Positions 3,899-20,648 of a DNA stretch of 64,000 nucleotides are shown piece by piece. How positions within the stretch are numbered: the stretch's first letter is position 1; every line of letters begins with the position of its first letter. Under the pieces are notes generated by a model. It saw only the letters and a list, made by a program, of their open reading frames with translations. It searched no databases and was not told where the DNA came from. The DNA is from Gracilinema caldarium DSM 7334 (lineage in GTDB: Bacteria; Spirochaetota; Spirochaetia; Treponematales; Breznakiellaceae). The stretch covers positions 2,920,972 to 2,984,971 of the forward strand of contig NC_015732.1 of NCBI RefSeq assembly GCF_000219725.1, read 5' to 3'. Position numbers and translations under genes: made by a program.

Positions 3899-6016
3899 AT
3901 GGGCGACACTAAAAACATATTGATCATTGGGGGTGGATATGGCGGCATCGAAACAGCCAAGAAGCTGGCAAAACACTATAAAAAACGCAACGACATATCC
4001 ATTACGTTAATCGACCGGAATCCCTTTCATACTTTGATGACCGAATTACACGAGGTAGCCGGTCACCGGGTCGAACCCGACTCAGTCCGTATTCCCTTTG
4101 CCAAGATCTTTGGTGCATCCAAAGTTAAGGTTATTCTCGATTCTATAGAAACGGTAGATTTTAAGGAGCAGGTTGCAATCTCTGCCACTAATCGCTATCC
4201 CTATGATTACCTGGTTATTGGGTCTGGAGCGGAACCAGAATTCTTCGGGGTACCCGGAATAAAAGAAAATGCCTTTACCCTCTGGTCTTTCGATGATTCC
4301 GTGAAGATTCGGCACCATATCGAAAAAACCTTTGAAAAAGCGATTGCCATTCAAGACCCAAAACTCCGTCAAAAAATGCTTACCTTCGTAGTCGCCGGAG
4401 CCGGGTTTACCGGGATTGAATTAGCCGGTGAATTCCTGGAATGGCGGGACGAAATGTGCAAAAAATGGCTCATTTCCCCCGATGAAGTAAAGGTTATTGT
4501 CGTAGAAGCGCTTCCCACCATATTACCCATTCTGGAAGAGGACCTCAGAGCAAAGGTAGAAACGTATCTTAAGAAGCATCAAGTAGAATTAAAAACAAAT
4601 ACCCCCATAGTTGGAGCTGAACCGGGAATTGTAAAATTGAAGGATGGTTCCACTATAGAAACCGAAACCTTCGTATGGACTGCCGGAGTCCAGGGTTGTC
4701 ACTTTGCGGGGATGCTGGACCTTACAAAAGGCCGCTGCGGTAACCGGGACTGTGAAATCATGAAAGCCCAGGGCACCTGCGGACTTGCAGACTGTAAGTT
4801 TAAGAAGGAGCATCGGGATGTATCTGGTAAAAAGGGTCGTATCCTCGTTAATGCTGAAATGCGTTCTGTAGATTACCAGAATGTCTTCCTCGTAGGGGAT
4901 AACATCTGGTTCATCGAAAACAACAAACCCCTGCCACAAATTGTAGAAACAGCCCTACAGACTGCCGATGTGGCAGCCCATAATATTGCGGCAGCACTAG
5001 ATGGAACGCCAGTTAAAACCTTTAAATCCAACTATCATGGGTTTATGGTTTCTGTGGGCGGAAAATATGCGGTTTCCAACGCAGGGGGCATGAAATTGTC
5101 AGGCTTCTTTGCCATGGCCATGAAGCATCTCATCAACCTGCATTACCTCCTCGGTGTGGCTGGTATCAACCAGTGCTGGGAATACCTCAAGCATGAGTTC
5201 CTGAATATGGAACATCACCGAAATATTGTCCGAGGCTTTGGGTCCTACCGGACCCGGGGCTATTGGCTCCTACCACTCAGACTCTGGCTTGGCCTCATGT
5301 GGGTTATAGAGGGGGTCAACAAGATTGGTGAAGGATGGCTCGCCTGGAGTACTGGCAGTAAATCCACCTGGATGTTCAGCCCCGGGGTACAGCAGGCTGG
5401 GACGACGGTCGCCCAGGCAGTTCAGTCAGCCGCTGCATCTGGAGCTGATGCGGTAGCAGCAGCCTCTGAATGGGTTGAAGAGACCGCAACTGCAGTAGTG
5501 CAATCTCCCCACCCTGTCTATGATGCGGTTGCTGCGGCTTCTGAGCAAGTAGCAGATACTGCAGGGGCTGCTGTTTCTGCCGGGACAGAGGCAGTTGCCC
5601 ATAGTTTCAGGAAGATTTGGGACCTTAGTAAGCCCATTTTTAATCCCCAGGGTGTTGTGGCAACCTGGTTCAGAACGACCTTTATGGATGGACTTGCGAG
5701 CCACATTCCGTTTCAAGCATTCCAACTCATGGTGGTTTTAGCAGAAATTGCCATAGGGCTCGCCCTTTTTGGCGGACTCTTTACCTGGTGGGCTGCGGCA
5801 GCTTCCATCGTGATGTGTTTTGTCTTTACCCTCTCTGGTATGTTTGCATGGGACCAGGTATGGTTTATTTTTGCAGCATTCTTAATGTTGGGTGGTGCAG
5901 GCCGGGCATTTGGTCTTGATTGTTGGGTTGTACCTTTCTGTAAGAAATGGTGGAATGGTACCCGTTTTGCCCGCAAACATTACCTGTACCTGGATAACCC
6001 AAGTAAGAAAAACTAG
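3899..6016 (+). CDS. Type II NADH dehydrogenase fused to a DoxX-like membrane domain
   Basis: This is a 705-residue fusion. Residues 1-430 are an NDH-2-like flavoprotein. An FAD-binding GGGYGGIE lies near residue 11, a second dinucleotide motif VAGAGFTGIELAGE near 165, and the flavin-contacting LVGDN near 330. Such enzymes pass electrons from NAD(P)H to quinone without pumping protons. A Cys-rich insert near 275-305 (GRCGNRDCE, then GTCGLADCK) is not part of a standard NDH-2 and could bind metal or a cluster. Helix YWLLPLRLWLGLMWVIEG follows, then an Ala-rich stretch (about 500-580). The protein ends in three more hydrophobic helices resembling DoxX, which may anchor the enzyme. A polyprenyl synthase follows 11 bp downstream, consistent with quinone biology. 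The SD is AAGGAG. Confidence 0.88.
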   Translation: MGDTKNILIIGGGYGGIETAKKLAKHYKKRNDISITLIDRNPFHTLMTELHEVAGHRVEPDSVRIPFAKIFGASKVKVILDSIETVDFKEQVAISATNRYPYDYLVIGSGAEPEFFGVPGIKENAFTLWSFDDSVKIRHHIEKTFEKAIAIQDPKLRQKMLTFVVAGAGFTGIELAGEFLEWRDEMCKKWLISPDEVKVIVVEALPTILPILEEDLRAKVETYLKKHQVELKTNTPIVGAEPGIVKLKDGSTIETETFVWTAGVQGCHFAGMLDLTKGRCGNRDCEIMKAQGTCGLADCKFKKEHRDVSGKKGRILVNAEMRSVDYQNVFLVGDNIWFIENNKPLPQIVETALQTADVAAHNIAAALDGTPVKTFKSNYHGFMVSVGGKYAVSNAGGMKLSGFFAMAMKHLINLHYLLGVAGINQCWEYLKHEFLNMEHHRNIVRGFGSYRTRGYWLLPLRLWLGLMWVIEGVNKIGEGWLAWSTGSKSTWMFSPGVQQAGTTVAQAVQSAAASGADAVAAASEWVEETATAVVQSPHPVYDAVAAASEQVADTAGAAVSAGTEAVAHSFRKIWDLSKPIFNPQGVVATWFRTTFMDGLASHIPFQAFQLMVVLAEIAIGLALFGGLFTWWAAAASIVMCFVFTLSGMFAWDQVWFIFAAFLMLGGAGRAFGLDCWVVPFCKKWWNGTRFARKHYLYLDNPSKKN

Positions 6017-6027
6017 TACGGTCCGAC

Positions 6028-6996
6028 ATGGCTGAATTCTGGAGTACCTTCCCCGGCATGGACACAGCCCTTGCTACTGTGTCCGAGCATATCCGTACCG
6101 CTACAACATCTTCGAATCCAATCATCCGGGAAGCTCTCGCTGACCTTTTTACAAAGCAGGGGAAAATGCTCCGGCCTGGGATGCTCATTCTGGCATCCCA
6201 CGCAGGGAAGCCAGATATGCAACGAATCTATCCTCTTGCAGCGGCGATTGAAATATTACATACAGCAACCCTTATCCATGACGATGTCATCGATGACTCT
6301 CCCTTACGTCGCGGCCTCCCTTCGGTACATATGAGATATGGGAAAAAGGATGCGGTCCTCATCGGTGATTTTTTGCTATCCCGTTGCTTTCTGCTCGCGG
6401 CAGAATACACCACACCCCAGAATGCGATTAATCTTGGGAAAGTCATTTCTGTTATTTGTGCGATGGAATTGGATCAGGATGCAGACCGATTCCATCCATC
6501 ATTATCGGTACGCAGTTATTTCAGGAAAATCATCGGAAAGACAGCCCTTTTATTTTCCCTTGCCTGCCATGTAGGGGCCTCCGAAGCCAAGGCTCCATCT
6601 ACAGTAACAGAACGGCTCCGGCGTATTGGCTATAATATTGGCATGGCTTTTCAAATTATCGATGACATTCTAGACTATACAGGAAATGAGACGGAAATTA
6701 AAAAACCTGTTGGAAATGATCTGAGATCCGGCCTTGTTACTCTGCCCCTCATATGTGCCTTACAGAAAGATGTGGATGGTGAATTAGCCCGACTGGTACA
6801 ACCTGATACATTTCCCCACAGTGATATTCAAAGAATTCTGGTCCTTACTAAAACCCTCGGCGGTATCAATACAGCCCGCTTGTATGCCCAACGTTTCACC
6901 ACACGGGCTTTGCGGGAGATTGAACAGCTACCACAGGGTTCTGCAAAACACAACATGGATCAACTTGCCAAAAAGCTTTTAATTCGTACATACTAG
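6028..6996 (+). CDS. Trans-isoprenyl diphosphate synthase (polyprenyl synthetase)
   Basis: The 322-residue protein belongs to the long-chain polyprenyl diphosphate synthase family. These enzymes condense isopentenyl diphosphate onto an allylic primer in the cytosol. The first aspartate-rich motif is in LIHDDVIDDSPLRRG near residue 90 and the second in FQIIDDILDYTG near 210. Both bind the magnesium-diphosphate. Chain length cannot be read with certainty. Products of this class feed quinone side chains or the undecaprenyl-like carrier. Position 11 bp after the NDH-2 fusion favours a quinone role by inference. mntP follows 5 bp downstream. Confidence 0.92.
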   Translation: MAEFWSTFPGMDTALATVSEHIRTATTSSNPIIREALADLFTKQGKMLRPGMLILASHAGKPDMQRIYPLAAAIEILHTATLIHDDVIDDSPLRRGLPSVHMRYGKKDAVLIGDFLLSRCFLLAAEYTTPQNAINLGKVISVICAMELDQDADRFHPSLSVRSYFRKIIGKTALLFSLACHVGASEAKAPSTVTERLRRIGYNIGMAFQIIDDILDYTGNETEIKKPVGNDLRSGLVTLPLICALQKDVDGELARLVQPDTFPHSDIQRILVLTKTLGGINTARLYAQRFTTRALREIEQLPQGSAKHNMDQLAKKLLIRTY

Positions 6997-7001
6997 GGTT
7001 T

Positions 7002-7583
7002 ATGTTCGAAACGATTTTAATAGCCCTTGGTCTTTCGATGGATGCCTTTGCTGTATCCATATCTTCAGGTATATGTACCGAAGGTTTAAAATCCCGCCAC
7101 ATACTCCGAGGGTCTTTTTCTTTTGGCCTCTTCCAGTTTGCCATGCCTGTACTTGGTTGGTTCTTGGGTTCTCATTTTCGTACAGCTATTCAAAATTTCG
7201 ATCATTGGATTGCCTTTGCATTGCTTGTTTTTATTGGCGGGAAAATGATTGTTGAATCCTTTGAACCTGAACCAACATCCTGTGATGATACGGCCGCACC
7301 ACAAAAAGCAGGCAAAACCGATATACGGAATATAAAAACCCTATTTGCCCTTTCAGTGGCTACCAGCATCGATGCCTTAGCAGTAGGACTTTCATACAGT
7401 CTTCTTGGAAAATCTATTTTTTCTCCCGCCGTAGCGATCGGACTTATTACCTTTTCAGTTTGTATAGTAGGATTTGAATTTGGGAAACGGATTGGCTACC
7501 TCATAGAAAAACGGGCAGAACTAATTGGTGGACTTGTACTGATCGGCATTGGGGGAAAAATACTCCTGGAACACCTATTGTAA
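7002..7583 (+). CDS. mntP: Manganese efflux pump MntP
   Basis: This is a 193-residue inner-membrane protein of the MntP (DUF204) family, which exports Mn2+. It shows the duplicated three-helix arrangement, each half carrying the family's aspartate signature: GLSMDAFAVSISSG near the N-terminus and ATSIDALAVGLSYS in the second half. Between them sits a hydrophilic loop (EPEPTSCDDTAAPQK). In many bacteria mntP follows a yybP-ykoY manganese riboswitch. Here it begins 5 bp after the polyprenyl synthase, so no separate leader exists and expression should follow the upstream promoter. The 66 bp after it hold only a weak short hairpin (AATAGC/GCTATT). Confidence 0.93.
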   Translation: MFETILIALGLSMDAFAVSISSGICTEGLKSRHILRGSFSFGLFQFAMPVLGWFLGSHFRTAIQNFDHWIAFALLVFIGGKMIVESFEPEPTSCDDTAAPQKAGKTDIRNIKTLFALSVATSIDALAVGLSYSLLGKSIFSPAVAIGLITFSVCIVGFEFGKRIGYLIEKRAELIGGLVLIGIGGKILLEHLL

Positions 7584-7649
7584 GCTCATCATTGCAGAGA
7601 CCCCTACGAAGCGCTAAAGCCCCAACAATAGCCTCCGCTATTACATCTA

Positions 7650-8960: not shown

Positions 8961-11054
8961 TTATTCTGCCGGTGGGCGCCGTCGGACAACAAATTCCTGC
9001 CGAGGAGCTGTTCGTGAAAGTTCGCAGGCTTTTTTGAGCTCCGAATACAGAAATTCCTGTGCACGGAACAATTCCATGTCAGGTTCAGGGGCTTCCCTGG
9101 TCCAGCGACCATCGGCACCAAGCACATGACTATGGGTAGTATCCTTAAAATAGCTGAAAAGAATATCCTTAACAGTACCTGCAACAGTATGGTCCAGTAT
9201 AGGCACCATTAGCTCAATTCGGCGGTCCAGGTTCCGGCTCATCCAGTCTGCACTGGAAAGATAGAGTTCCTCAGCACCGCCATTGGCAAAATAGATAATC
9301 CGGGAATGTTCCAGATAGCGGTCTATAAGGCTTACTACATGAATGTTTTCCGAAAGCCCCGAAACTCCCGGTACCAGCATACAAATACCCCGGATATTTA
9401 GCTGAATCGAGACACCAGCCTGGCTGGCTCGATAGAGAGCATTGATTACCTCTACATCAGCCAGGGAGTTCAATTTTGCCACAATTTTACCAGGATATTC
9501 CTGACTTGACCGTTTAGCTTCCCGATCAATGAGTTCAATGAGTCTGCGTTTTAAATTTACCGGTGCAATAACTAGTTGCTGCATACTCTGGATAACCGAA
9601 TAACCGGTGATCATATTAAAAAAGAGGGTTGCATCCTGGGCGATCTGAGGATGTATCGTAAAGAGACTTAGGTCACTGTAGAGCCGAGCAGTCTTATCAT
9701 TATAGTTACCTGTAGAAAGATGTATATACCGACATATTCCATTTTCTTCCCGACGAACGACAAGGCAAATTTTAGCATGCACCTTAAGCTGTGCGATTCC
9801 GTATACAACAATAACGCCAGCCCGTTCCAATCGGGATGCCCAGGTAATATTTCGTTCCTCATCAAACCGAGCCTTCAGTTCTACGAGGACTGTTACCTGT
9901 TTGCCATTTCGGGCAGCCTGTTCCAAAGCTTTTACGATCGGGGAGTCACCACTGGTACGATAGAGGGTAATTTTGATAGCAAGCACCTGGGGATCTAGAG
10001 CCGCATCCTGGATAAAACGGATCACCGGATCAAAGGTGTGATAGGGAAGCTGTAAAAGCACATCCCGTTGGTGCAAGGTATCCCAAAGGGGTTCATCTTC
10101 AGGCAATTCCACAGGCCAGAGCGGGGGCCAGGGCTCTTCCCGAAACTGGTCAAATCCTTTAATAAAGGCTAATTCTGATAGGGAACGTAAATCAATGGGC
10201 CCTAACATTTCATATATATCTATTGGATCAAGCTTCAGAAGACGAGCAATTCGTTCTTTAAGTATTGGGCTGTTACCTGTATAGGAAAGCCGTACCGGCC
10301 ATGAATGTTCCCGATTCTGAAGTACCTCTGTCATAGCTTCGACAAAGTCTTCGTCCCGTTCTTCATCCACCGCGAAATCCGCATCCCGGGTAATCTTAAA
10401 GAGCATAGCTTCCTTAATGGTATAACCGTTAAAAAGCCGATAGGCCCACATCATAACAATATCATCGAGTAAAGTCCAAGGCTTTACCTGATGTGGTTCT
10501 GGGGGGAGCCAGATTATGCGGTCCAATGCGGTAGGAACTTGGACAATAGCTACCTGACCATTATCGAGAAGAAAGGCACCATGAAGTTTCAGATTCCCCA
10601 TGCTGGGAGGTTCCATATCTTCTTCCAGTCGAAGGGGTGTTAAAATGGGAAAAACTTCTTTTTGGAATAGGTTCTCAAGATACTCAAATTGGTTCTGGCT
10701 ATAGGAATCGGGTCTGATAAGTTCGAGACCGATTTTTGCAAGCTCGGGCAGGACATCCTGGTTTAAGCATTCATAGGTTTGTTTTGTAATCTCTTGGACC
10801 TTTTGAGCAATCAGACTGAGCTGCTCTTCCGGCAAAAGACCTGAAGCATCACGCCCCAGATTCATCCGCTGGGCTCTCTTGATAGCCGCAACCCGGACCA
10901 TGAAAAACTCATCAAAATTGGATGCAACAATGGTCAGAAATTTCAGCCGATCAAGAACCGGAAGATCCCGGCGAAGGGCTTCACCAAGGACCCGGGCATT
11001 AAAGTCTACCCAGGAAAGATCCCGATTAAAATAACGAAATGGCACGTTTTGCAT
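8961..11054 (-). CDS. ppk1: Polyphosphate kinase 1
   Basis: PPK1 polymerises the terminal phosphate of ATP into inorganic polyphosphate. The chosen start is the ATG at 11054 (MQNVPFRYFNRDLSWVDFN), because the typical PPK1 N-domain begins there; about 31 upstream in-frame residues do not look like the family and overlap ppx. The resulting 697 residues match normal PPK length. Visible marks are the N-domain NRDLSWVDFN, the head domain, and the two PLD-like catalytic domains with ALKAARNG-type (ALEQAARNGKQVTVLVELKARFDE) and VHAKICLVVRRE segments. The histidine of VHAKI is the phosphorylated residue by family knowledge. The gene lies 7 bp after ppx, so synthesis and degradation of polyphosphate share one transcript. 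Confidence 0.96.
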   Translation of the reverse strand: MQNVPFRYFNRDLSWVDFNARVLGEALRRDLPVLDRLKFLTIVASNFDEFFMVRVAAIKRAQRMNLGRDASGLLPEEQLSLIAQKVQEITKQTYECLNQDVLPELAKIGLELIRPDSYSQNQFEYLENLFQKEVFPILTPLRLEEDMEPPSMGNLKLHGAFLLDNGQVAIVQVPTALDRIIWLPPEPHQVKPWTLLDDIVMMWAYRLFNGYTIKEAMLFKITRDADFAVDEERDEDFVEAMTEVLQNREHSWPVRLSYTGNSPILKERIARLLKLDPIDIYEMLGPIDLRSLSELAFIKGFDQFREEPWPPLWPVELPEDEPLWDTLHQRDVLLQLPYHTFDPVIRFIQDAALDPQVLAIKITLYRTSGDSPIVKALEQAARNGKQVTVLVELKARFDEERNITWASRLERAGVIVVYGIAQLKVHAKICLVVRREENGICRYIHLSTGNYNDKTARLYSDLSLFTIHPQIAQDATLFFNMITGYSVIQSMQQLVIAPVNLKRRLIELIDREAKRSSQEYPGKIVAKLNSLADVEVINALYRASQAGVSIQLNIRGICMLVPGVSGLSENIHVVSLIDRYLEHSRIIYFANGGAEELYLSSADWMSRNLDRRIELMVPILDHTVAGTVKDILFSYFKDTTHSHVLGADGRWTREAPEPDMELFRAQEFLYSELKKACELSRTAPRQEFVVRRRPPAE

Positions 11055-11061
11055 AATCAAC

Positions 11062-12603
11062 CTACAATAATAGTACTTTATAGCCGAAAACATCCTGAAA
11101 CATATCCGACTTTTCTTCAAGTCCAAGCCGTTCCAGGGTAAGATCATGACTACCCATGACAGTGATCACGATAGCATCTTCCCGCTGTTCTACTTTTATT
11201 TCTTTAATACGCTGGGCATGACCCCGATCCAGTGCATCGGCGACACGGAGAATCGCGGCAAGTTTTAAAACAAGAATACGCTCCTCCCGTTGCAGAGCAA
11301 TAAAGGCTATATGGGTTGAATTGGGAGGCGCCTTCCTATGATAGCGGACCACATTGGAAATAACATCCAGATCTTCCTGATGTAACCCGAAAATCTCAGA
11401 ATTAGCCACAATATACTGACTATGCTTATGATGCCCCGAACTGCGGATGAACATGCCGATATCATGGAGCAGACCTGCGACTTCCAACAGAAGTCGTGCA
11501 CGACGGTCCAAACCGTGTATTTTTACCAGGGCATCGAAAAGCATCAGCGCAAGGTTTGTCACATGGCGGCTATGATGTTCATCAAACCGGTATTTTTTAC
11601 CTAAATTGATGGCTGAAGCAATAACCTGGGAATAAAACTCTTCCTGCAGGTTCGGGTCCACCCCCTGGGACAGGTTGATGAGCATCCCTTCCCGAATTGA
11701 TGCATTGGGAACAATCAGTTCTGTAGCTGCGGTTTTTTCAAGGAAGAGCTTATAGGTGAGGAGCCCCGGAATAATTCCTTCTGCTTCTGCAAAGGGAATT
11801 CTCAGCTTCTGGACACATTCTTCTATACTATACCCTTTGATACGGTCGACAAAATCTATAAACACCTGCCGGTCAACGACCCAGCAGTCCTTGTTTAATT
11901 CAATACCAAACCTGCTTGCTACCAGCCGGGCATCGGACCCAGCCACAATAAATAGTTTGATATGACTGAGATCAAGTTCTACATTGAGGGATTCACAGGT
12001 ATTATTGACACTTTCCGTAAGAAATCGCTGCAGATACAGGTTAGACCCCATAGCCTGCCGAACCTGCTGATCGACCAGAATAGTACCAAGCCTGAGGCTG
12101 TGGGCGGCCACCATTTTTCCCCGCCGCAACAGCATTAATTCGGTTGAACCGCCGCCAACCTCAATAATTACCGAATTACAACGACTAAACTGTGGTCGGT
12201 CATCCTTGAGGGCAAAGCGAACCGCAAGATACATAAGCCGGTTTTCTTCAATGCCTTCTACAACCAGAATCCTGAAACCAGTCTGGAGGTAGACCCGGTC
12301 AATGAACATATCCCGATTTCGGGCCTCCCGGAGTGCGCTGGTAGCTATGACATGGATATCCCGGTCATCAATACCCCAACCATTCAAAAGTTCCCGGTAA
12401 TTCTGAAGCACCACCATGCTGGCAAGCATGGATTCACGGGATATGCTGCCGCGGGTAAACACATCGCGGCCTAGGGCGACAGGTTTTCCGGATCTATCTA
12501 CCACATGCCAATCCCCTGTGGGACTTAATTCCGCGACAATAAGACGGATGCCGGTGGAACCTATTTCAACAACCGCCACCAACCGGTAGTCCATACTGGC
12601 CAT
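11062..12603 (-). CDS. ppx: Exopolyphosphatase / pppGpp phosphohydrolase with HD domain
   Basis: This 513-residue protein of the Ppx/GppA family removes terminal phosphate from polyphosphate or pppGpp. The ASKHA ATPase-like fold covers residues 1-310. It shows VVEIGSTGIRLIVAEL at the start, ATSALREARNRD in the middle and IEVGGGSTELMLL as the second phosphate loop. The C-terminal part (about 330-500) is an HD domain with HSRHVTNLAL, then LLEVAGLLHDIG and HHKHSQYI, as in the long Ppx class. It sits between a glycoside hydrolase (10 bp) and ppk1 (7 bp). Whether polyphosphate or pppGpp is the main substrate cannot be told from sequence; the ppk1 neighbour favours polyphosphate. Confidence 0.93.
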   Translation of the reverse strand: MASMDYRLVAVVEIGSTGIRLIVAELSPTGDWHVVDRSGKPVALGRDVFTRGSISRESMLASMVVLQNYRELLNGWGIDDRDIHVIATSALREARNRDMFIDRVYLQTGFRILVVEGIEENRLMYLAVRFALKDDRPQFSRCNSVIIEVGGGSTELMLLRRGKMVAAHSLRLGTILVDQQVRQAMGSNLYLQRFLTESVNNTCESLNVELDLSHIKLFIVAGSDARLVASRFGIELNKDCWVVDRQVFIDFVDRIKGYSIEECVQKLRIPFAEAEGIIPGLLTYKLFLEKTAATELIVPNASIREGMLINLSQGVDPNLQEEFYSQVIASAINLGKKYRFDEHHSRHVTNLALMLFDALVKIHGLDRRARLLLEVAGLLHDIGMFIRSSGHHKHSQYIVANSEIFGLHQEDLDVISNVVRYHRKAPPNSTHIAFIALQREERILVLKLAAILRVADALDRGHAQRIKEIKVEQREDAIVITVMGSHDLTLERLGLEEKSDMFQDVFGYKVLLL

Positions 12604-12613
12604 AGTTGCCTGC

Positions 12614-14038
12614 TTAAAGCTTATCTATAAGCATGGAGCACTTACCAGAGGGTATGGGGAGGGTTTTCTTTTTCTTTCCCAGTATATTGATGGTAAAATA
12701 GTATAATTTTTCACTTTCCATGTGAATTTCCCAGCCTCTACCGCTCTTATTGGAAAGAATGGTAATCATGTTCCGTTTCAGAGATAGGTTCTCAATACCC
12801 ATAATTTCCAGGTTCGGAATGATCCAATCTACGGTCTTACGGGGAAGTGAGATAGACAGCCCAATGATATTTTCTATGGTGAGACAAATTGTAGAAAGGG
12901 CAATATAGCTTAAATAATTAGCTCGGGGAAAACCTTCTCGTCCTGGCCATTGGGCAGGCCCTTCCTTTAAGGGGAGATAGGCTTCCCATAGATTCCCCTT
13001 ATGATGATTCCCTTCAGGATGCATGGAATCGAGTACAAAATAGAGATGCCGGATAGAACATTCACGGGCAAGATCCCAACGTTGATACCTTTCCAGTCCC
13101 TTAATTACCATAAAGGTTAGATGAGGAAATACGGATCCCCGGTAGCCATCGCCTCCTTCACTGAAAGAAGGTTCATTCCGTGCTACCGTCGGATAGGGAT
13201 GCGGAGTACCGAAATACTCAGGATCGGTAAGTTTTTCTATGAGCCGTTCAGCCTTATCGTCATTCGGCAGTTCTGCCAGAAGAGGCCAGTAACCGGCGAT
13301 TGTTTTTACCGAAAGCCGCCGTTCATGTTCGTCCAAATCGTAATAAAACCCTGAGTCAGGATCCCACATAAGGGAGTTAATTCTTGTTTTTAATGAGAAA
13401 TACTGCCGCTTATATTGAAAACTAGATTCCTTATCGTTAAGTATATCCGCCAGAGCAGACATATAAAGAGCATTAATTGCCATGACCGTATTAAAATCGA
13501 TAGGGTATACCGCTCCCTCTCGGGGAGCATTATCCATACCTGTTGCAGCGAGAGGAACCGCATAGAGGCCATTAGGTCGTTTGTACAAAGAATCAATCCA
13601 AGCCATGTATCGATGCAAGATAGGAACTACTTCTTTTACCCGTTTCTTATTAGCAGACTTATGGTACAGATTAAATTCTGCCCATGCAAAAAGAGGCAGC
13701 CCAAGCCCTTCAGGATTATCAGGGCTTACGACGGGCAGGCCCGTTGCAATTTCATAGGCACAACGAATAGCACCATTTGCTTCCTGATGTTCATAAAAGA
13801 TATCCAAAGTTGGATGAGCCTGATAAATTCTATTTGAGTAAACGAGAAAAAAGGATGATAAAATTGCTTCCAGCTGGGTGACCTGAGTACAACCGGGATG
13901 CCCAAAAAATTTACCCTTGATAGGGCTCTTTTCCGGCCCTGAAAGCCAGCTGTCCTGTATCCAAGCCCACGTTCTGTCGTATATATCTACAAAATCCTGA
14001 TCATAGAAGTGGATTTTTGGAAAATCACGCTTTATCAC
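12614..14038 (-). CDS. GH63/trehalase-like (alpha/alpha)6 glycoside hydrolase
   Basis: This 474-residue cytosolic protein (no signal peptide) resembles the MGH1-like/GH63 and trehalase group. Supporting segments are GMDNAPREGAVYPIDFN, then LMWDPDSGFYYDLDEHE, a glycine-rich EGGDGYRGSVFP and a late GNLWEAYLP with the C-terminal catalytic Glu region. These mark an inverting (alpha/alpha)6 barrel. Substrates in the family include trehalose, mannosylglycerate and glucosylated glycans; I cannot choose among them. The start is a GTG with AAAGGAG eight bases upstream. It is the first gene of the run with ppx, ppk1 and the methyltransferase. A TTGACA at 14085-14090 (reverse strand) may be its -35, but the -10 is poor. 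Confidence 0.78.
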   Translation of the reverse strand: MIKRDFPKIHFYDQDFVDIYDRTWAWIQDSWLSGPEKSPIKGKFFGHPGCTQVTQLEAILSSFFLVYSNRIYQAHPTLDIFYEHQEANGAIRCAYEIATGLPVVSPDNPEGLGLPLFAWAEFNLYHKSANKKRVKEVVPILHRYMAWIDSLYKRPNGLYAVPLAATGMDNAPREGAVYPIDFNTVMAINALYMSALADILNDKESSFQYKRQYFSLKTRINSLMWDPDSGFYYDLDEHERRLSVKTIAGYWPLLAELPNDDKAERLIEKLTDPEYFGTPHPYPTVARNEPSFSEGGDGYRGSVFPHLTFMVIKGLERYQRWDLARECSIRHLYFVLDSMHPEGNHHKGNLWEAYLPLKEGPAQWPGREGFPRANYLSYIALSTICLTIENIIGLSISLPRKTVDWIIPNLEIMGIENLSLKRNMITILSNKSGRGWEIHMESEKLYYFTINILGKKKKTLPIPSGKCSMLIDKL

Positions 14039-14113
14039 AAAGACTCCTTTACATCCTTACAAAAGTAACGTAAGGAAGATAAAATGTCAAATATATTCAT
14101 CCTTGACAAGACC

Positions 14114-14142
14114 TTGACAGGCCGGCCTATGACTAGCATAGT
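14114..14142 (+). promoter_or_regulatory. Probable sigma70 promoter of the GatB/asparaginase-like fusion gene
   Basis: TTGACA at 14114-14119 and CATAGT at 14137-14142 are 17 bp apart. The -35 is perfect and the -10 matches four of six positions. The element ends 21 bp before the ATG of the fusion gene. A second TTGACA lies a few bases upstream at 14103. The divergent gene probably starts from the same 125-bp interval. Confidence 0.55.
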
Positions 14143-14163
14143 ACGAAGGAAGGCGGGTGTAGT

Positions 14164-16566
14164 ATGTTAAAATCCTATATAGCATTGGAAGTTCGTATAC
14201 TCCTTCTCACAGGAGTAAAAACATTCTGTAATTGTACCTATCAGGATAATGGGATGCTGGGATCATGTCCTATATGCCGAGGTGAAGGGACTCTTTCACC
14301 CCAATTAAACCAAATTGCTGCCCGTAAGGCCTATACGATTACCAAGGCCTTAAACTGTACTATTGTTAAAAATCCACCCTATGAGAAAAATCTCAGCACC
14401 CCTGAACTACCACCAGAATATTCCCTGTCCCGTCTTTCCCTTAAATTGGGAACCGATGGCTTTATGGATATTGTGTTTCACAGGAGAAGAAAACATATCC
14501 GGATTGCAGAACTTCGTATCGAAGAAGATGCAGGCCGTTTAACCCATTCAGGAAAAGAAACCAGAATGGATTACACCACCGCCGGGATGCCAAGCCTGAG
14601 ACTCAGGACCGAAGCGGATTTTGAAATTGGAGAAGAAGCAGAGGTATTTCTCTCTGACCTTCGTCGACGGCTACAATATCTGGAAGTTATCCCAGGAGTA
14701 CCTGTAGAAAGTGTCATCCGCTGTAATGCCCATGTGGCTCTGGCCCCTTATCCTGAAGAACCAGAAGGCTATGTTAAACTACGGAATCTCAATTCCTTTA
14801 ATTTTGTAAGAAAAGCGATCAATACAGAATTAAACCGGCAGGAAGAAATCTTAGAACACGGTGGTACCGTATTACCAGAAAGTCGCATCTGGAACGAAAC
14901 AAAAAACACAACCGAATCTTTTCAGAAAAGGAAACTTGAAAATCGACCAAAATTTACTCCCCTTGAAAAGGTTCCTCCCTTTACCCCGGGACCAGAAATA
15001 TTAGAAGCCCTGGAAACCTTTACCGTCGAATTACCTGAACCCCGCCGCAACCGGGTTATGAGCCAATATGGACTTACCCTACCCCAGGCTGAGTTTATTT
15101 GTGACGAAAAAAGCAGGGCCGATTATTTTGAAAAAACCATTGAACTGGGAGGAACACCTCGAGAAACAGCCCAATGGTTATCATCCTTTGTAATAAAGGA
15201 ATTTAAACGGCTTCAGTTTACACCTATTACAGCACCATTAACACCAGTGCGATTTGCCAGTATTCTGAAGATGTTATCTGAGCGTCGTATTCACTCTGGG
15301 ATTGCAAAACAAACTATTACTGCTGTTCTGGAGGAAAATAAAGATCCGGAGCTCATTGTTAAAGAGCGTGGTTGGGAGCAGCTCACCGATGAAAAGGTCA
15401 TCTCTGAAATAGTCCATAAAATTATCGAAGAGAACCCTCTTGAGGTTAAACGGGTTCGAGAAGGTGATGCCCGGCCTATACGATTCTTAACCGGGCGTAT
15501 CATGCGGGAAACCGGAGGACTTGCTGAACCAAATATGGTTAAGCAAATACTTCGGGAACAACTTTCTGTTTCCCTTGTCTATGTGCTTTCTATGGGAGGA
15601 GCAATTTCTGGCCGTATTGCAGAAGATGGCATGGTAGAAAGCGGTGATGAACGGATACTCAAAGAACTCATCCACCAACGGATGAACAATTTGGAATCCA
15701 AGATTCGCTTTGAATCCATCCAGGTTGGACGGCTCCTTTCCGAAGAGATTATTCCTTCCGACTGGGCTGCCCTCATCACGACCATTACCGAACGGATTAA
15801 TTCAGGAACCGCCAATGGTATAGTGGTTGCCCATGGGACAGACACCCTTCCCTATACAGCACCACTCCTGTACTGGCTCTTTGCCGATGCGGGTGTTCCC
15901 ATCGTGCTTGCGGCCTCATCTACAGCGCCGGGAACATCCAATGAAGCTGCTGAAACCATGGAGATGGCCATCAACCTAGCTGTACAAGAAAAGACAGGTG
16001 TCTATGTGGTCCATAGTGGTAGAGTTCTGTCACCGCTTAATCTTAAATTTGAGCGCATTGGCTCTGATGGATTCCGAAATTGGAACATGCAGAAAGCCAT
16101 TCATTATGGTTCATCTCTTTTAACGGGGCTTCTAGAAGCTGATCAATACGTTGTAACTCAACTTCTGGAAGAAGCGGCTAACGCTATGTGTGTCATACGG
16201 ATTTATCCAGGGCTCCGATCAGATTATCTTACTGCCCTTATGGATCAAGGGGTTCGTTATTTTTTCTTGGAACTTTACGATACAGGAACCGCAGGCTTCC
16301 GTGAAGGTCCCTATTCGCTAAAACGGGCCTTTGCAATGGGGAGAAAAAAGCAGGCCCGGTTTTACTGTACCTCCCAACAGGAAGGGCTCGTTGATTTTTC
16401 CGGTTACAGTACCTCCAAGGAGCTGTGGAAAGAAGGAGCCGTACCTATGGGTGTATATACCACAGAAACGGTGGTAGCCCGGTTCCTGGCCGCAAGCATC
16501 ATTGCTGACAGTGAACAAGAACGGGATGAACTTATGGAACGGGCTGGTCCTGAATCCCTCCAATAG
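14164..16566 (+). CDS. Fusion of a divergent GatB-like half and an asparaginase/GatD-like half
   Basis: This is an 800-residue protein of unknown function. Residues 1-460 align with GatB: a zinc-knuckle pattern CNC (22-24) with CPIC (35-38), ELRIEEDAGRLTH, MDYTTAGMPSLRL, VKLRNLNSFNFVRKAI, a late segment TAQWLSSFVIKEFKRL and a YqeY-like tail. Residues 470-790 resemble type-I asparaginase or archaeal GatD, with VVAHGTDTLPYTA (Thr559, Asp560) and a plausible lysine in LKFERIGSDGF. Two changes stand out. The GatB box GLEVH reads ALEVR (Arg11 for His), and the first catalytic Thr of TGGTIA is Ala480 in SMGGAISG. A tRNA amidotransferase (GatE+GatD order) is thus suggested by architecture but doubted by residues. 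It is a single gene convergent with a phosphatase, 5 bp apart. Confidence 0.85.
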   Translation: MLKSYIALEVRILLLTGVKTFCNCTYQDNGMLGSCPICRGEGTLSPQLNQIAARKAYTITKALNCTIVKNPPYEKNLSTPELPPEYSLSRLSLKLGTDGFMDIVFHRRRKHIRIAELRIEEDAGRLTHSGKETRMDYTTAGMPSLRLRTEADFEIGEEAEVFLSDLRRRLQYLEVIPGVPVESVIRCNAHVALAPYPEEPEGYVKLRNLNSFNFVRKAINTELNRQEEILEHGGTVLPESRIWNETKNTTESFQKRKLENRPKFTPLEKVPPFTPGPEILEALETFTVELPEPRRNRVMSQYGLTLPQAEFICDEKSRADYFEKTIELGGTPRETAQWLSSFVIKEFKRLQFTPITAPLTPVRFASILKMLSERRIHSGIAKQTITAVLEENKDPELIVKERGWEQLTDEKVISEIVHKIIEENPLEVKRVREGDARPIRFLTGRIMRETGGLAEPNMVKQILREQLSVSLVYVLSMGGAISGRIAEDGMVESGDERILKELIHQRMNNLESKIRFESIQVGRLLSEEIIPSDWAALITTITERINSGTANGIVVAHGTDTLPYTAPLLYWLFADAGVPIVLAASSTAPGTSNEAAETMEMAINLAVQEKTGVYVVHSGRVLSPLNLKFERIGSDGFRNWNMQKAIHYGSSLLTGLLEADQYVVTQLLEEAANAMCVIRIYPGLRSDYLTALMDQGVRYFFLELYDTGTAGFREGPYSLKRAFAMGRKKQARFYCTSQQEGLVDFSGYSTSKELWKEGAVPMGVYTTETVVARFLAASIIADSEQERDELMERAGPESLQ

Positions 16567-16571
16567 TAGTA

Positions 16572-17270
16572 TTATAAGATTGGGAGCGGTTCGTTAATCG
16601 TGTCCCAGGCTACATAAGCCGGATGATGATTGATTGGCTCAACTTTAAAACGGAACATACCGCAGTTTTGAACTGGTATGAGTGGAAACCAAGACCGGCA
16701 ACCAAAGGTAATCCGAAACAGCCATTGCAGGAACCCTGCATGGCTTACCGCAACCACAGCATGCACATTATGTTCAAGAGCCAGGTCCCGTAAAATGGAC
16801 CAGGCGTCATAGGCTCTGTTATAGAGCGTTTCTTCCGATTCGGCTTCCGGAATGGCAGTCCAACTTTTTGAACGGAAATGAGGCCATAACTCGTTCGTCT
16901 CTGAACGAACATCAGCCCAGGCTTTACCTGTCCAGATGCCGGTATCCAATTCAGTAAGGGATTGTACTACCTCAGGGTTTCCAAACCCAGCAACCTCTGC
17001 AATAAGCTCTGCGGTTTCTCGAGCCCGACCCATGGGGGAAGTAACGATATAGACCCGCTCGGGGTTTGCACAAAAGGGAAGCTTCAATAACTGCCGGCCC
17101 CTCAGGCGAGCCTGTTCACGGCCTCGTTCAGTGAGGGGAAAATCGAGTAAACCTTGAAATACCCCATTGGCATTACCTTCGCTTTCACCATGACGAATAA
17201 AGACAAATTCCACGGGGTGCTTCAGTGGTTGAAAAAAAGCCCCATCAACCCTGGGGAATTGAGTATCCAT
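16572..17270 (-). CDS. Histidine phosphatase superfamily protein (phosphoglycerate mutase-like)
   Basis: The 232-residue protein carries the phosphohistidine signature FIRHGESEGNANGVFQG. It also has LTERGREQA and a second catalytic histidine in VVAVSHAGFLQWLF. A further conserved arginine sits in VTSPMGRARETAELIAE. The family includes cofactor-dependent phosphoglycerate mutases, fructose-2,6-bisphosphatase-like enzymes and broad phosphatases. The modest length and loose C-terminus favour a phosphatase, but the substrate is unknown. Its ATG overlaps the stop of the upstream 603-residue gene by one base (TAATG), a sign of translational coupling. Confidence 0.88.
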   Translation of the reverse strand: MDTQFPRVDGAFFQPLKHPVEFVFIRHGESEGNANGVFQGLLDFPLTERGREQARLRGRQLLKLPFCANPERVYIVTSPMGRARETAELIAEVAGFGNPEVVQSLTELDTGIWTGKAWADVRSETNELWPHFRSKSWTAIPEAESEETLYNRAYDAWSILRDLALEHNVHAVVAVSHAGFLQWLFRITFGCRSWFPLIPVQNCGMFRFKVEPINHHPAYVAWDTINEPLPIL

Positions 17271-19081
17271 TATTGCTCCGCCACCTGATAATAAATCTTT
17301 ATATGTTCTTCCTTTGCCCGATGTTTCATTTTAAGCAGTAATGTTTGTTCTGATTCAGAATAGGCCCAACCAGAGGAGTCATAGCGTTCAAAGCGTGGAT
17401 CTGTACGGAAATCAATGTTGTACAGCTGTATTTTTTTAAAGGGTTTTACCCCTTTTATCATCATATAATGGGTCTCTCCTTCGAGAAAGGGAACAGTAAT
17501 ATCGAGCACTGAGCCGTCAAAAGTTGCGGAAAGCTGCCCTGCAGCGGTCCATGCCCAAAGCCCTGGAAAACCTGGCAGATTGATATCTTCAATCCGAGGG
17601 TAATAAAGATCCCCTGTAATTTGAGCATAAAAACGGGCAGCACCAATTCGGCCTTCACCGGCGGGGATAAAGGCAGTCTTATCATTAGAAATCTCAGCAT
17701 ACTGAGGTAAGGAGCCATTAGGATCGGATAAACTTAACGCGGAAAGCTGTAAGGTTTTACCTAGTCCAATCCAATCTGACAAACCTGTAGAGGTACCATA
17801 CAGGACTAATGCGTTCCCAAGTCGCATAGTAAATAGCAGATCCCCCTGACTAGCAGGAAAAGCTAAAACTTTCCCTTCGGTAGTTACTTTCAGAGTACCA
17901 GCAATGACGAAGAGTGCTTGTTCTTTGAGCCGTTCAAAGGGATTTTCCTCAGATCCTCGATATTGTTTCCAGAGAACAACATTTTCTATAACTCCAACCG
18001 AGGTTGTTGGTGTTAACGTACTGGGATCTATACCCTTTACCAAACTGACCAGTTCATCAACAAGCGCTTTAGAACCTCGAACCGAAAGAGTTCGGATAAG
18101 TTCTGGTTCTGCAAGAATTTCTGTTACTTTTTCATTGATCATACGAGAAAGACGCCCCAGGTACTCCCGATCAGCGGCAACAAACCCCCGAAGAGCTCCA
18201 TCCAAACGACCAAAAAAGGCTGACGACCGATAGCTACGCTGACCACTTTCTAAAAAAGCTGCTGGTGTTGTACCAGTAGCACTCCGATAATTTCCTTTTC
18301 TCGCTGCAAAAGATACATAAGCAAGAACCACCTCTTCACTGGGATTCCCTGCCATACTACGTTCCCAATCACTTGCTGCTTGAGTAAGCCAACGGTTAAT
18401 AACACCAGTATAGGCTTGAGTGTCGAGGGCACTGGCAAGAACAAACTCCCCAGGGCTAAAGCCCTTCTTTTCCGGTTCTTGCCCATAAGCAACGGTCGCC
18501 TGATTTCCCTTTAAATTGATATATTTATTCTGATAATCGATTATGGCTCCATTGAATGTATAATTTTTCTCTCCAACAGCGACAATATATCGATTTTTTT
18601 CATTAGAAAGTATGTGAGAAGATCTAAGAGGACGAAATGGAACATGTAATTCCTGGGTTGTAGCTGAGAGCTGAGCTTGAATAGTTAAAGTTTCAACCCC
18701 ATTTGCAAAATAAGTTTTAAATGCTAGAAAGCTGCCATCGGTCAATTCAAGACGGATACCACTATCAGAAATAGTAAAAGCCCGACCAGCTAACGGACTT
18801 TTTAATCCATTCTTTCGAACAACAGTCAACCCCTCCTCTTCTGCAAGTCTGAATTCCATACCCCCAAAAAAAACAGAAAAGCGACCATCAATCCGTACCG
18901 GTTCATCCTTAGCTTGCTTTTTAATTTCATTGACATCCAGATAATTACTGGAAACAACCATCGAACCAAGATTCAACTGAAAGGCAGTCTTGCGCACATA
19001 TTGAATGAGAACCAATCCAATGAATACTGCCAGGTACAGCCCCATAAGGCCTATTGTTCGTAGAACTACATGTCTTTTCAT
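17270..19081 (-). CDS. Large membrane-anchored protein of unknown function
   Basis: I do not recognise this 603-residue protein. Residues 8-26 (RTIGLMGLYLAVFIGLVLI) form one hydrophobic helix, probably an uncleaved signal anchor, so most of the chain should lie in the periplasm. The first 200 residues look beta-rich (short alternating strands such as DGSFLAFKTYFANGVETLTI). The middle (about 230-350) is helical and rich in charged residues. The C-terminal 150 residues are again beta-rich with YSESEQTLLLKM near the end. No catalytic motif was seen. It is translationally coupled to a histidine phosphatase and divergent from a TPR lipoprotein gene. A structural envelope role is possible but unsupported. 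Confidence 0.75.
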   Translation of the reverse strand: MKRHVVLRTIGLMGLYLAVFIGLVLIQYVRKTAFQLNLGSMVVSSNYLDVNEIKKQAKDEPVRIDGRFSVFFGGMEFRLAEEEGLTVVRKNGLKSPLAGRAFTISDSGIRLELTDGSFLAFKTYFANGVETLTIQAQLSATTQELHVPFRPLRSSHILSNEKNRYIVAVGEKNYTFNGAIIDYQNKYINLKGNQATVAYGQEPEKKGFSPGEFVLASALDTQAYTGVINRWLTQAASDWERSMAGNPSEEVVLAYVSFAARKGNYRSATGTTPAAFLESGQRSYRSSAFFGRLDGALRGFVAADREYLGRLSRMINEKVTEILAEPELIRTLSVRGSKALVDELVSLVKGIDPSTLTPTTSVGVIENVVLWKQYRGSEENPFERLKEQALFVIAGTLKVTTEGKVLAFPASQGDLLFTMRLGNALVLYGTSTGLSDWIGLGKTLQLSALSLSDPNGSLPQYAEISNDKTAFIPAGEGRIGAARFYAQITGDLYYPRIEDINLPGFPGLWAWTAAGQLSATFDGSVLDITVPFLEGETHYMMIKGVKPFKKIQLYNIDFRTDPRFERYDSSGWAYSESEQTLLLKMKHRAKEEHIKIYYQVAEQ

Positions 19082-19169
19082 TGTTAATAGGATACCCCAT
19101 CCTTTAGTTTAATTTCAACTTGCCGATTCTTATACCATCATATACTATACCCCCATGGTCAAGGATTAT

Positions 19170-20648
19170 ATGCTGAGAAAACGTTCACAACATGGCAAAA
19201 GATGGTTGGTTATTACGGTAATTTTTGGAATTTTTACTTCCTGTGCAACAAGCGTACCAAGGGCCTCACTTGAGCCTGAGAAGGGCCCAACAGTTACAGC
19301 CTCAATTCCTACGGCAAAGGCACCAGAAGAGAAGAACCCTACAGAAAAAGCACCTGTGGATAAGACCGAACAGATACTTACATCTATGCAAACTTTGATG
19401 CAACGAGGTGACTTTTCCAAAGCTCTTGAGTTATTCAATGGACTTCCCATAGATCTCATAGCAACCGCTGATATGCAGCGCATGAAGGCTACCATACTTG
19501 CTGCAGGGGGTAATTTACCCGAGGCGCGTACAACCCTGCAAAACTTACTAAGTACCGATGGAGAGAAGGAAGAGACCCTCTTTTTACTTGCTCATGTAGA
19601 AGGGTTGGCGGGCAACATAAAGGAACAAAAACAGATCCTGGAAAAAATAGTATCTATCAATCCCAAAAACACCCAAGCCCTAACAACCCTTGGCGATGTA
19701 GCCTATGCTGCAAAAACCTACAAATTAGCCGAAGCCTATTATAAAAAAGTCCTTTCCATCGACCCGAATCACAGTGAAGCCTTGATTGGTAAAGGGAAAG
19801 TAGACCGTTACAATAAAAACCCCAAATCTGCCGAAGAGGCCTTTAACAAGGTTATCAGCATGAATCCCGATTGGGCTCTCCCCCTGCAAGAACGGGCCCG
19901 GCTGTATCGGGAAAACAATTTCCTCAGGGAAGCCCTAGCAGATCTAGACAAAGCCAAAGAACTTGCACCGCGGGACTACTGGATTGCGCTAGACCGTGGA
20001 AATGTACTCCTCGATCTGGGGAAAAAGGAAGAAGCCCTTAAAGAGTACGAGCGGGCCATCAGCATCGATGGAGACTATTTCCTCGCCTATGTATATAGTG
20101 CTGGCATCAAGGATGAACTTGAGGATTATAAAGGTGCAGAACAGGCATACAAAAGACTTTCCGAGCTCAATCCGGACTACTACTTTGCCTTTGAAGCCCT
20201 GGGGGTACTCTACATGCGGGATAAACGCTGGGCCCAGGCTAAGGATGCTTTCATAGAAGCCTATAAACGGTCACCCAATCACAGCACCTATGCCCTCCTG
20301 GCGGCGATTGCCTGGTACCGAAGCGGGAAAGCTCAGAATGTAAAGGGATTCCTGGAAAAGGTCATCCCTCTGGTAGAGCCAAATAGCCTAGACTGGTACA
20401 TGCTCAGGCTTTATTATGATTTTTCAGGGGACACGGATATTGCGACTAGGATCGGTAACGAGAAAAAACTTGATGTAAAGGCTCGAATGCTCTATTACTT
20501 AGCCCAATATTATGATCTTAAAGGAAATATCAACCTGGCGAATAAATACTTTATGCTTGTTCGGGATATGAATCGGAGAAACATGATTGAATGGCGTCTG
20601 AACCAATGGGAGATCGAGGCTCGAGGCTTACCAAACCTTTCATCTTAG
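19170..20648 (+). CDS. TPR-repeat lipoprotein
   Basis: This is an exported protein with an N-terminal signal peptide ending in a lipobox-like FTSC, so the cysteine would be lipidated and the chain held at a membrane. A low-complexity Pro/Glu/Lys linker follows. At least eight tetratricopeptide repeats then run to about residue 430, with segments such as AEAYYKKVLSIDPNHSEAL and EALKEYERAISIDGDYFLAY. TPRs form protein-binding superhelices. I prefer the ATG at 19170 because AAGGA lies just upstream. An in-frame ATG at 19155 has no ribosome-binding site. A DHH phosphoesterase starts 16 bp after the stop. Partner proteins are unknown. Confidence 0.88.
   Translation: MLRKRSQHGKRWLVITVIFGIFTSCATSVPRASLEPEKGPTVTASIPTAKAPEEKNPTEKAPVDKTEQILTSMQTLMQRGDFSKALELFNGLPIDLIATADMQRMKATILAAGGNLPEARTTLQNLLSTDGEKEETLFLLAHVEGLAGNIKEQKQILEKIVSINPKNTQALTTLGDVAYAAKTYKLAEAYYKKVLSIDPNHSEALIGKGKVDRYNKNPKSAEEAFNKVISMNPDWALPLQERARLYRENNFLREALADLDKAKELAPRDYWIALDRGNVLLDLGKKEEALKEYERAISIDGDYFLAYVYSAGIKDELEDYKGAEQAYKRLSELNPDYYFAFEALGVLYMRDKRWAQAKDAFIEAYKRSPNHSTYALLAAIAWYRSGKAQNVKGFLEKVIPLVEPNSLDWYMLRLYYDFSGDTDIATRIGNEKKLDVKARMLYYLAQYYDLKGNINLANKYFMLVRDMNRRNMIEWRLNQWEIEARGLPNLSS

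Follow-up and report, generated by a model that had tools for sequence, protein, structure and literature searches.

The window examined here, a stretch of 64,000 nucleotides from the genome of Gracilinema caldarium DSM 7334, contains a gene for a single-chain protein of 800 residues in which a GatB half is joined to an asparaginase-fold tail and in which catalytic residues of both halves have been replaced. The modules themselves are known; the fusion, the fixed loss of the catalytic nucleophile from the tail and the double pseudoenzyme are apparently undescribed as far as the open-access literature could be searched, and in that literature we found no description of a GatB paired with an asparaginase domain. 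The fusion spans the class Spirochaetia in two forms, an operon form and a stand-alone form, the second of which is represented by the window gene. This gene and its domains are as follows:

14164..16566, plus strand: stand-alone fusion of GatB and pseudo-asparaginase, 800 amino acids, with an ATG start and no internal stop
14164..15045, plus strand: GatB cradle (pseudokinase) domain, residues 1-294, from Pfam, PDB sequence matches and the model
15046..15567, plus strand: GatB helical and YqeY tail domains, residues 295-468, which are tRNA-binding in GatCAB
15568..16566, plus strand: pseudo-asparaginase domain, residues 469-800, from Pfam, PDB matches, the model and the tree

The open reading frame, Pfam, matches to PDB sequences and an AlphaFold2 model agree on the two halves that a first-pass annotation of this DNA had described in the protein. 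Pfam finds GatB_N (residues 6-274, 8e-39), GatB_Yqey (320-467, 8e-34) and Asparaginase (472-641, 8e-23) in that order, and the PDB sequence matches are to GatB at residues 5-466 and to asparaginase/GatD at 472-775. The model, built with 32 aligned sequences, has a mean pLDDT of 83.3 and a pTM of 0.65; its residues 1-468 superpose on GatB (9a6e_A, Z 27.9; 3al0_B, TM 0.75 by target) and its residues 469-800 on the L-asparaginase 5ot0_A (Z 29.8, rmsd 2.8 over 308). Structure prediction of the two halves, which had been proposed as a check, thus recovers the GatB architecture (GatB_N with YqeY) and fold in the one and the asparaginase fold in the other.

Family models set the protein apart from the known members of either group. 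The window protein scores 265.4 bits on TIGR00133, the GatB equivalog, below the cut-off of 314.8 that the operon-type fusions exceed, and it also lies below the cut-offs of the GatD equivalog (90.9 against 324 bits) and the GatE equivalog (40.7 against 319.6 bits). The asparaginase half has similar scores on the GatD and type I models, both far under the cut-off, and in the tree the fused asparaginase-fold tails form a clade of their own, outside the GatD clade and on a separate stem of 2.68 changes per column. The earlier description of this half as GatD-like was therefore too specific, and the parallel drawn with archaeal GatDE fails for the other half as well, which belongs to the bacterial GatB lineage and not to that of GatE; convergence with GatDE was likewise considered and was rejected on the family scores and trees. 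What is held in common with GatDE is the use of the two kinds of module and a Ser-Glu pair also found in GatD (FSED), whereas the window protein is a single-chain fusion of GatB lineage that has lost the nucleophile and is without the N-terminal domain of GatD. With the type I L-asparaginases (TIGR00519) the tail shares the fold and the second Thr, the Asp, the Lys and the Ser, but it has Ala for the nucleophile Thr, a score far under the family cut-off and its own long stem. Annotation of the stand-alone protein as "GatB" or as "asparaginase" would mislabel it. As a separate observation, a Spirochaetota genome of family f20 (L183, G405:C109:14000-24000) carries an archaeal-type gatE-gatD pair at 4338-6245 and 6215-7627, beside a GatB, which exceeds the GatE and GatD cut-offs and has TGGTIAS intact; the genome is a MAG with 4% contamination, and a foreign origin of the pair is possible.

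Three sites of the GatB half bear on its chemistry and its metal binding:

14194..14196, plus strand: Arg11, replacing the Mg2+-ligand His of GLE(V/I)H; R in 29 of 29 stand-alone copies, H in the operon type
14599..14601, plus strand: Arg146, replacing a Mg2+-ligand Glu (S. aureus GatB Glu150); R in 28 of 29 stand-alone copies, E in the operon type
14227..14277, plus strand: zinc-type Cys22, Cys24, Cys35 and Cys38; present here, absent from about one third of the aligned stand-alone copies

In a published model of GatB (PMC4027206), the yeast residues E34, T189, N230 and S232 contact ATP and H36, E156 and E186 contact Mg2+. Alignment equates E34 with Glu9, T189 with Thr149, H36 with position 11, E156 with Glu121 and E186 with position 146 (the last three being 12, 125 and 150 in S. 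aureus), and the counterparts of N230 and S232 fall within a conserved N-L-N-S run in which the exact partners are uncertain. The window protein thus keeps Glu121 of the three Mg2+ ligands His/Glu/Glu and has Arg at the other two; in the alignment, Glu121 and the ATP-contact residues Glu9, Thr149 and Asn/Ser are conserved across the stand-alone copies. Change extends through the cradle, where, of 81 columns in which canonical and operon-type GatB never vary, 32 are kept in fewer than 10% of stand-alone copies, and many of the lost columns carry one new residue in nearly all of these copies (H11R, H118R and E205K in 27 of 27 aligned stand-alone relatives, E146R, D188N and K207R in 26 of 27), a uniformity beyond chance. 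Every column of the helical/YqeY part that is invariant in canonical GatB is kept in at least 50% of stand-alone copies. With its ATP contacts kept and two Mg2+ ligands replaced, the GatB half of the stand-alone form looks like a pseudokinase, which may bind a nucleotide in the absence of metal. Set beside canonical GatB, the window protein has the same GatB_N-helical-YqeY order, the same fold and the same ATP-contact residues, but it is a stand-alone protein with Arg at two Mg2+ sites, without DYRYFPEPDLP and with an additional C-terminal tail. The first-pass annotation had read ALEVR (Arg11), GGAI (Ala480), HGTDT (Thr559-Asp560) and the four cysteines correctly, and Lys628 is also kept; its statement that the zinc cysteines remain holds for the window protein and fails for about a third of its aligned orthologues. 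Homologues with His at column 11, which it had thought would mark this copy as a decayed paralogue, never occur in the stand-alone clade, though the His is intact in the operon form.

The corresponding sites in the pocket of the tail, with their equivalents in E. coli asparaginase II, are:

15601..15603, plus strand: Ala480, at the position of the nucleophile Thr12; A in 48 of 48 stand-alone copies of family f1 and in 22 of 23 operon-type copies
15739..15744, plus strand: Ser526-Glu527, ligand-binding pair (Ser58-Gln59); in 29 of 29 stand-alone and all operon-type copies (role from PMC8460627)
15838..15843, plus strand: Thr559-Asp560 (Thr89-Asp90); in 26 of 29 and 28 of 29 stand-alone copies, respectively
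16045..16047, plus strand: Lys628 (Lys162); in 27 of 29 stand-alone copies

E. coli asparaginase II holds its ligand via S58, Q59, G88, T89, D90 and E283', to which T12 contributes by its main-chain N (PMC8460627), and acylation in the usual asparaginase mechanism falls to Thr12 (PMC8948990, PMC8460627). In the window protein this first catalytic Thr is missing and the Thr89-Asp90-Lys162 triad is present as Thr559, Asp560 and Lys628; Gly558 occurs in 29 of 29 stand-alone copies, and the GTDT and NL(K/R)F motifs are conserved alongside the Ser-Glu pair. A Glu (Glu63) also stands at the place of Gln59 in the Erwinia asparaginase. By their titles, the entries 7c8x, 7cbu and 5dnc are crystal structures of genuine asparaginases with a Thr-to-Ala mutation and with Asn or Asp as the ligand.

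The stand-alone copies of family f3 are more varied at this pocket, with A, T, S or V at the nucleophile column, an invariant Arg for His in the GatB half and zinc cysteines that are often absent. The intact Thr that might have marked the window copy as a decayed paralogue is limited to a nested minority of f3 within the stand-alone clade, and Ala is the rule in the operon type; all outgroup asparaginases have Thr at this column. In a tree of 35 tails, three changes suffice to explain the column and Ala is its common state, so that the Thr and Ser of f3 look secondary. When f3 is sampled more widely (30 fused tails), seven changes are required, and with Thr in every outgroup asparaginase it is conceivable that some f3 members have retained the ancestral residue. 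Some of the members with Thr or Ser may be active.

In the operon form the fused gatB is preceded by gatA and followed by aspS2 at 23 of the 23 loci read, which comprise three found earlier and 20 that emerged when 395 Spirochaetia genomes were searched for the operon-type tail; the same search returned long fused frames in many more families. The GatB motifs GLE(I/V)H, HLEED, LEIVT, RCDAN or RADAN, E(I/V)KN and DYRYFP(E/D)PD are intact in the 22 readable copies, and the nucleophile column holds Ala in 22 copies and Ser in one (genome G149). By the annotation of its genes, this operon would make Asn-tRNA by amidating Asp-tRNA(Asn). AsnRS lies above its cut-off in 19 of 20 further operon-type genomes and coexists with aspS2 in most genomes checked. 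The stand-alone form was found, as matches with at least 55% identity, in 50 of the 200 f1 genomes searched, many of which are incomplete, and further copies were seen in f2 and in 31 f3 genomes; Arg replaces His in all 46 f1 copies that cover the N-terminus. No fused frame was seen outside Spirochaetia in a phylum sample of 296 genomes.

The stand-alone gene is being lost in parts of f3 and looks dispensable, being patchy in f1 and broken into pieces in G212 (L145, 2971-5365); in G334 (L144) it is split across two frames. The GatCAB of f3 contains a GatB of another lineage (about 38% identity) and no AspRS2-type match was seen in the f3 genomes that have the stand-alone gene, so the role of the gene there cannot be tied to the aspS2 operon. 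Neither a GlnRS above cut-off nor any AspRS2-type match is present in the f3 genomes G322, G323, G319, G260, G318, G293, G287, G332, G310, G201 and G209. Gene content suggests that a Gln-type amidation system has replaced the Asn-type one in f3.

The G. caldarium genome has a second, tail-less GatB, 36% identical to the window protein, in a separate gatC-gatA-gatB-aspS2 operon, so that the search for a separate gatCAB proposed in the first-pass annotation is answered. The gatC of this operon is a weak match (22.2 bits, under the cut-off), and its aspS2 exceeds the cut-offs for aspartate--tRNA(Asn) ligase (371.6 against 368.4 and 490 against 353 bits). AsnRS, GlnRS, one more AspRS-like match and AsnA are encoded in the same genome, and with asnA present Asn-tRNA synthesis is not the sole source of Asn. 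The operon resembles the route by which Deinococcus and Thermus form Asn on tRNA. That pathway is known in genomes of the Deinococcus/Thermus type, which resemble this one in having gatCAB and a second AspRS alongside AsnRS and GlnRS (PMC4206432); the abstract of PMC4206432 mentions no asparaginase-fold domain on GatB, and we know of none in those bacteria. The sole other asparaginase-family match in the G. caldarium genome is a 162-residue N-terminal fragment (L068, 1492-1980; G000:C1 near 1,048,773), with transposase-like ORFs just downstream, and the genome may thus be without a working asparaginase of this family.

Upstream of the fusion, the window contains three further genes of interest:

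12614..14038, minus strand: divergently oriented gene for an MGH1/trehalase-like glycoside hydrolase, which marks the ancestral locus; adjoins the stand-alone gene in 41 of 44 loci
11062..12603, minus strand: Ppx/GppA phosphatase, syntenic within Treponematales
8961..11147, minus strand: polyphosphate kinase, syntenic within Treponematales

The glycoside hydrolase gene also lies divergently upstream of the operon form in 20 of 23 loci, and in two others the contig ends first; a neighbour common to both forms indicates that the stand-alone gene occupies the old operon site. The order of ppk, Ppx/GppA and glycosidase (8961-14038) around the fusion is kept across many Treponematales loci, as is, at 17270-20648, that of an unassigned 603-residue protein without a match in Pfam or NCBIfam and of a TPR protein. 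Linkage to ppk/ppx was rejected as a functional clue; it is seen within Treponematales and is absent beside the operon form in G538 and G584, so synteny is more likely than an ancestral association. A search for an RNA leader near the gene gave no Rfam match at the gathering threshold within 11000-20000.

In the GatB tree, the tail-less GatB of other Spirochaetia (G564, G586, G497) falls outside a clade (100/99) that unites the operon-type fusions, the canonical GatBs of f1 and the stand-alone clade. The stand-alone copies group as a single clade (100/100), whose stem measures 1.22 changes per column for the GatB half and 0.29 (100/99) in the tail tree. After duplication the GatB half was thus rebuilt, with about four times the change of the tail. 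The operon copy of G149, basal to the tail-less f1 GatBs (100/100), has the opposite pattern, with an end branch of 0.20 for GatB and 1.29 for the tail; the simplest account is that the function of the tail moved to the stand-alone copy and that the operon copy then lost its tail. Since Ala is found in 22 of 23 operon-type fusions whose GatB looks active, the nucleophile had gone before the GatB half changed.

Trees, alignments and gene order show that a working GatB, encoded in a gatA-gatB-aspS2 operon of an ancestor within Spirochaetia, acquired an asparaginase-fold domain at its C-terminus, that the tail lost its nucleophile (Thr to Ala) and kept its putative ligand-holding residues, and that the stand-alone form arose by one duplication of the fused gene at the base of Treponematales. 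By the same evidence, the copy left at the old glycosidase-side locus, with two of three Mg2+ ligands now Arg, became the window gene, and in f1 the other copy kept the amidation job and, in all but G149, dropped the tail. Horizontal transfer of the stand-alone gene was rejected, since the groups in its tree correspond to the families. Strong purifying selection acts on both halves: unsaturated pairs (L122/L126/L127/L129, L139/L141) have a dN/dS of 0.04-0.10 in each of the three parts, with values of 0.02-0.03 for the Gracilinema pairs where dS, there near saturation, is estimable; some f3 pairs are more weakly constrained (0.1-0.3).

The anatomy and history of the fusion can be read from these data; its ligand and output we infer from the pathway of the operon, the occurrence together of a direct and an indirect route to Asn-tRNA and the ligand-bound structures of Thr-to-Ala asparaginases. 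The tail would bind asparagine in its free form, or else aspartate, glutamine or something closely related, uncleaved and so report the amino-acid state, and on GatB it would tune the balance between the AspRS2-GatCAB route and AsnRS. The window protein, with one dead site for an amino acid and another for a nucleotide without Mg2+, would be a sensor in its own right, which might act on tRNA via the YqeY part. That the pseudo-asparaginase binds Asn, Asp or a relative without cleaving it, in a regulatory capacity on GatB and later on the pseudokinase paralogue, is the reading we prefer, with confidence a little short of even. The wider proposition of a class-wide sensor made from a dead asparaginase on the Asn-route GatB, with a two-site pseudoenzyme in Treponematales that reads amino acid and nucleotide together, is possible but doubtful.

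The tail might instead be an assembly domain that dimerises to join two GatB (or GatCAB) units, its pocket merely being inherited with the fold. Proteins of the asparaginase fold associate as intimate dimers, as GatD does in GatDE, and the asparaginase fold is here confidently predicted; a pure dimer role would not, however, require the conservation of Ser526, Glu527, Gly558, Thr559, Asp560 and Lys628, and we consider it unlikely. That the protein is still an amidohydrolase, relying on Thr559, the second Thr, together with Lys628 and Asp560, or taking an unusual substrate such as an aminoacyl-tRNA, would account for the nearly invariant equivalents of Thr89, Lys162 and Asp90 and for the Thr or Ser at the first position in part of f3, but it is Thr12 that acylates in the usual mechanism (PMC8948990, PMC8460627) and the operon form shows Ala to be a long-standing, fixed state; catalysis by the second Thr alone, as suggested in the first-pass annotation, is accordingly disfavoured, and we judge this alternative distinctly unlikely. 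The stand-alone protein could also take the place of GatB in a complex with GatA and GatC and act as a brake or decoy on GatCAB via GatA or tRNA(Asn), given that the GatB fold and YqeY part are retained and that gatCA is present in its own genome (the gatC match being weak). Such an action would fit the preferred regulatory reading as its output step; as an explanation in its own right it is decidedly improbable, because the gene persists in f3, whose GatCAB belongs to the other lineage. The change of role envisaged from the outset is much likelier than functionless decay, which the patchy presence of the gene and its disruption in G212 and G334 might suggest but which is scarcely credible for a gene with dN/dS of 0.02-0.1 in both halves, newly fixed, clade-wide replacements and vertical inheritance over three families.

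Cells that have both routes to tRNA(Asn), direct charging with Asn and amidation of Asp-tRNA(Asn), should need to choose between them, and no dedicated regulator of that decision is known to us. In many families of one bacterial class, the very enzyme that carries out the amidation has a dead asparaginase fused to it. The duplication displays, stepwise and in living genomes, the possible move of a domain's job from an enzyme to a pseudoenzyme, with G149 as an intermediate that has both forms and with branch lengths of the two halves that shift in opposite directions.
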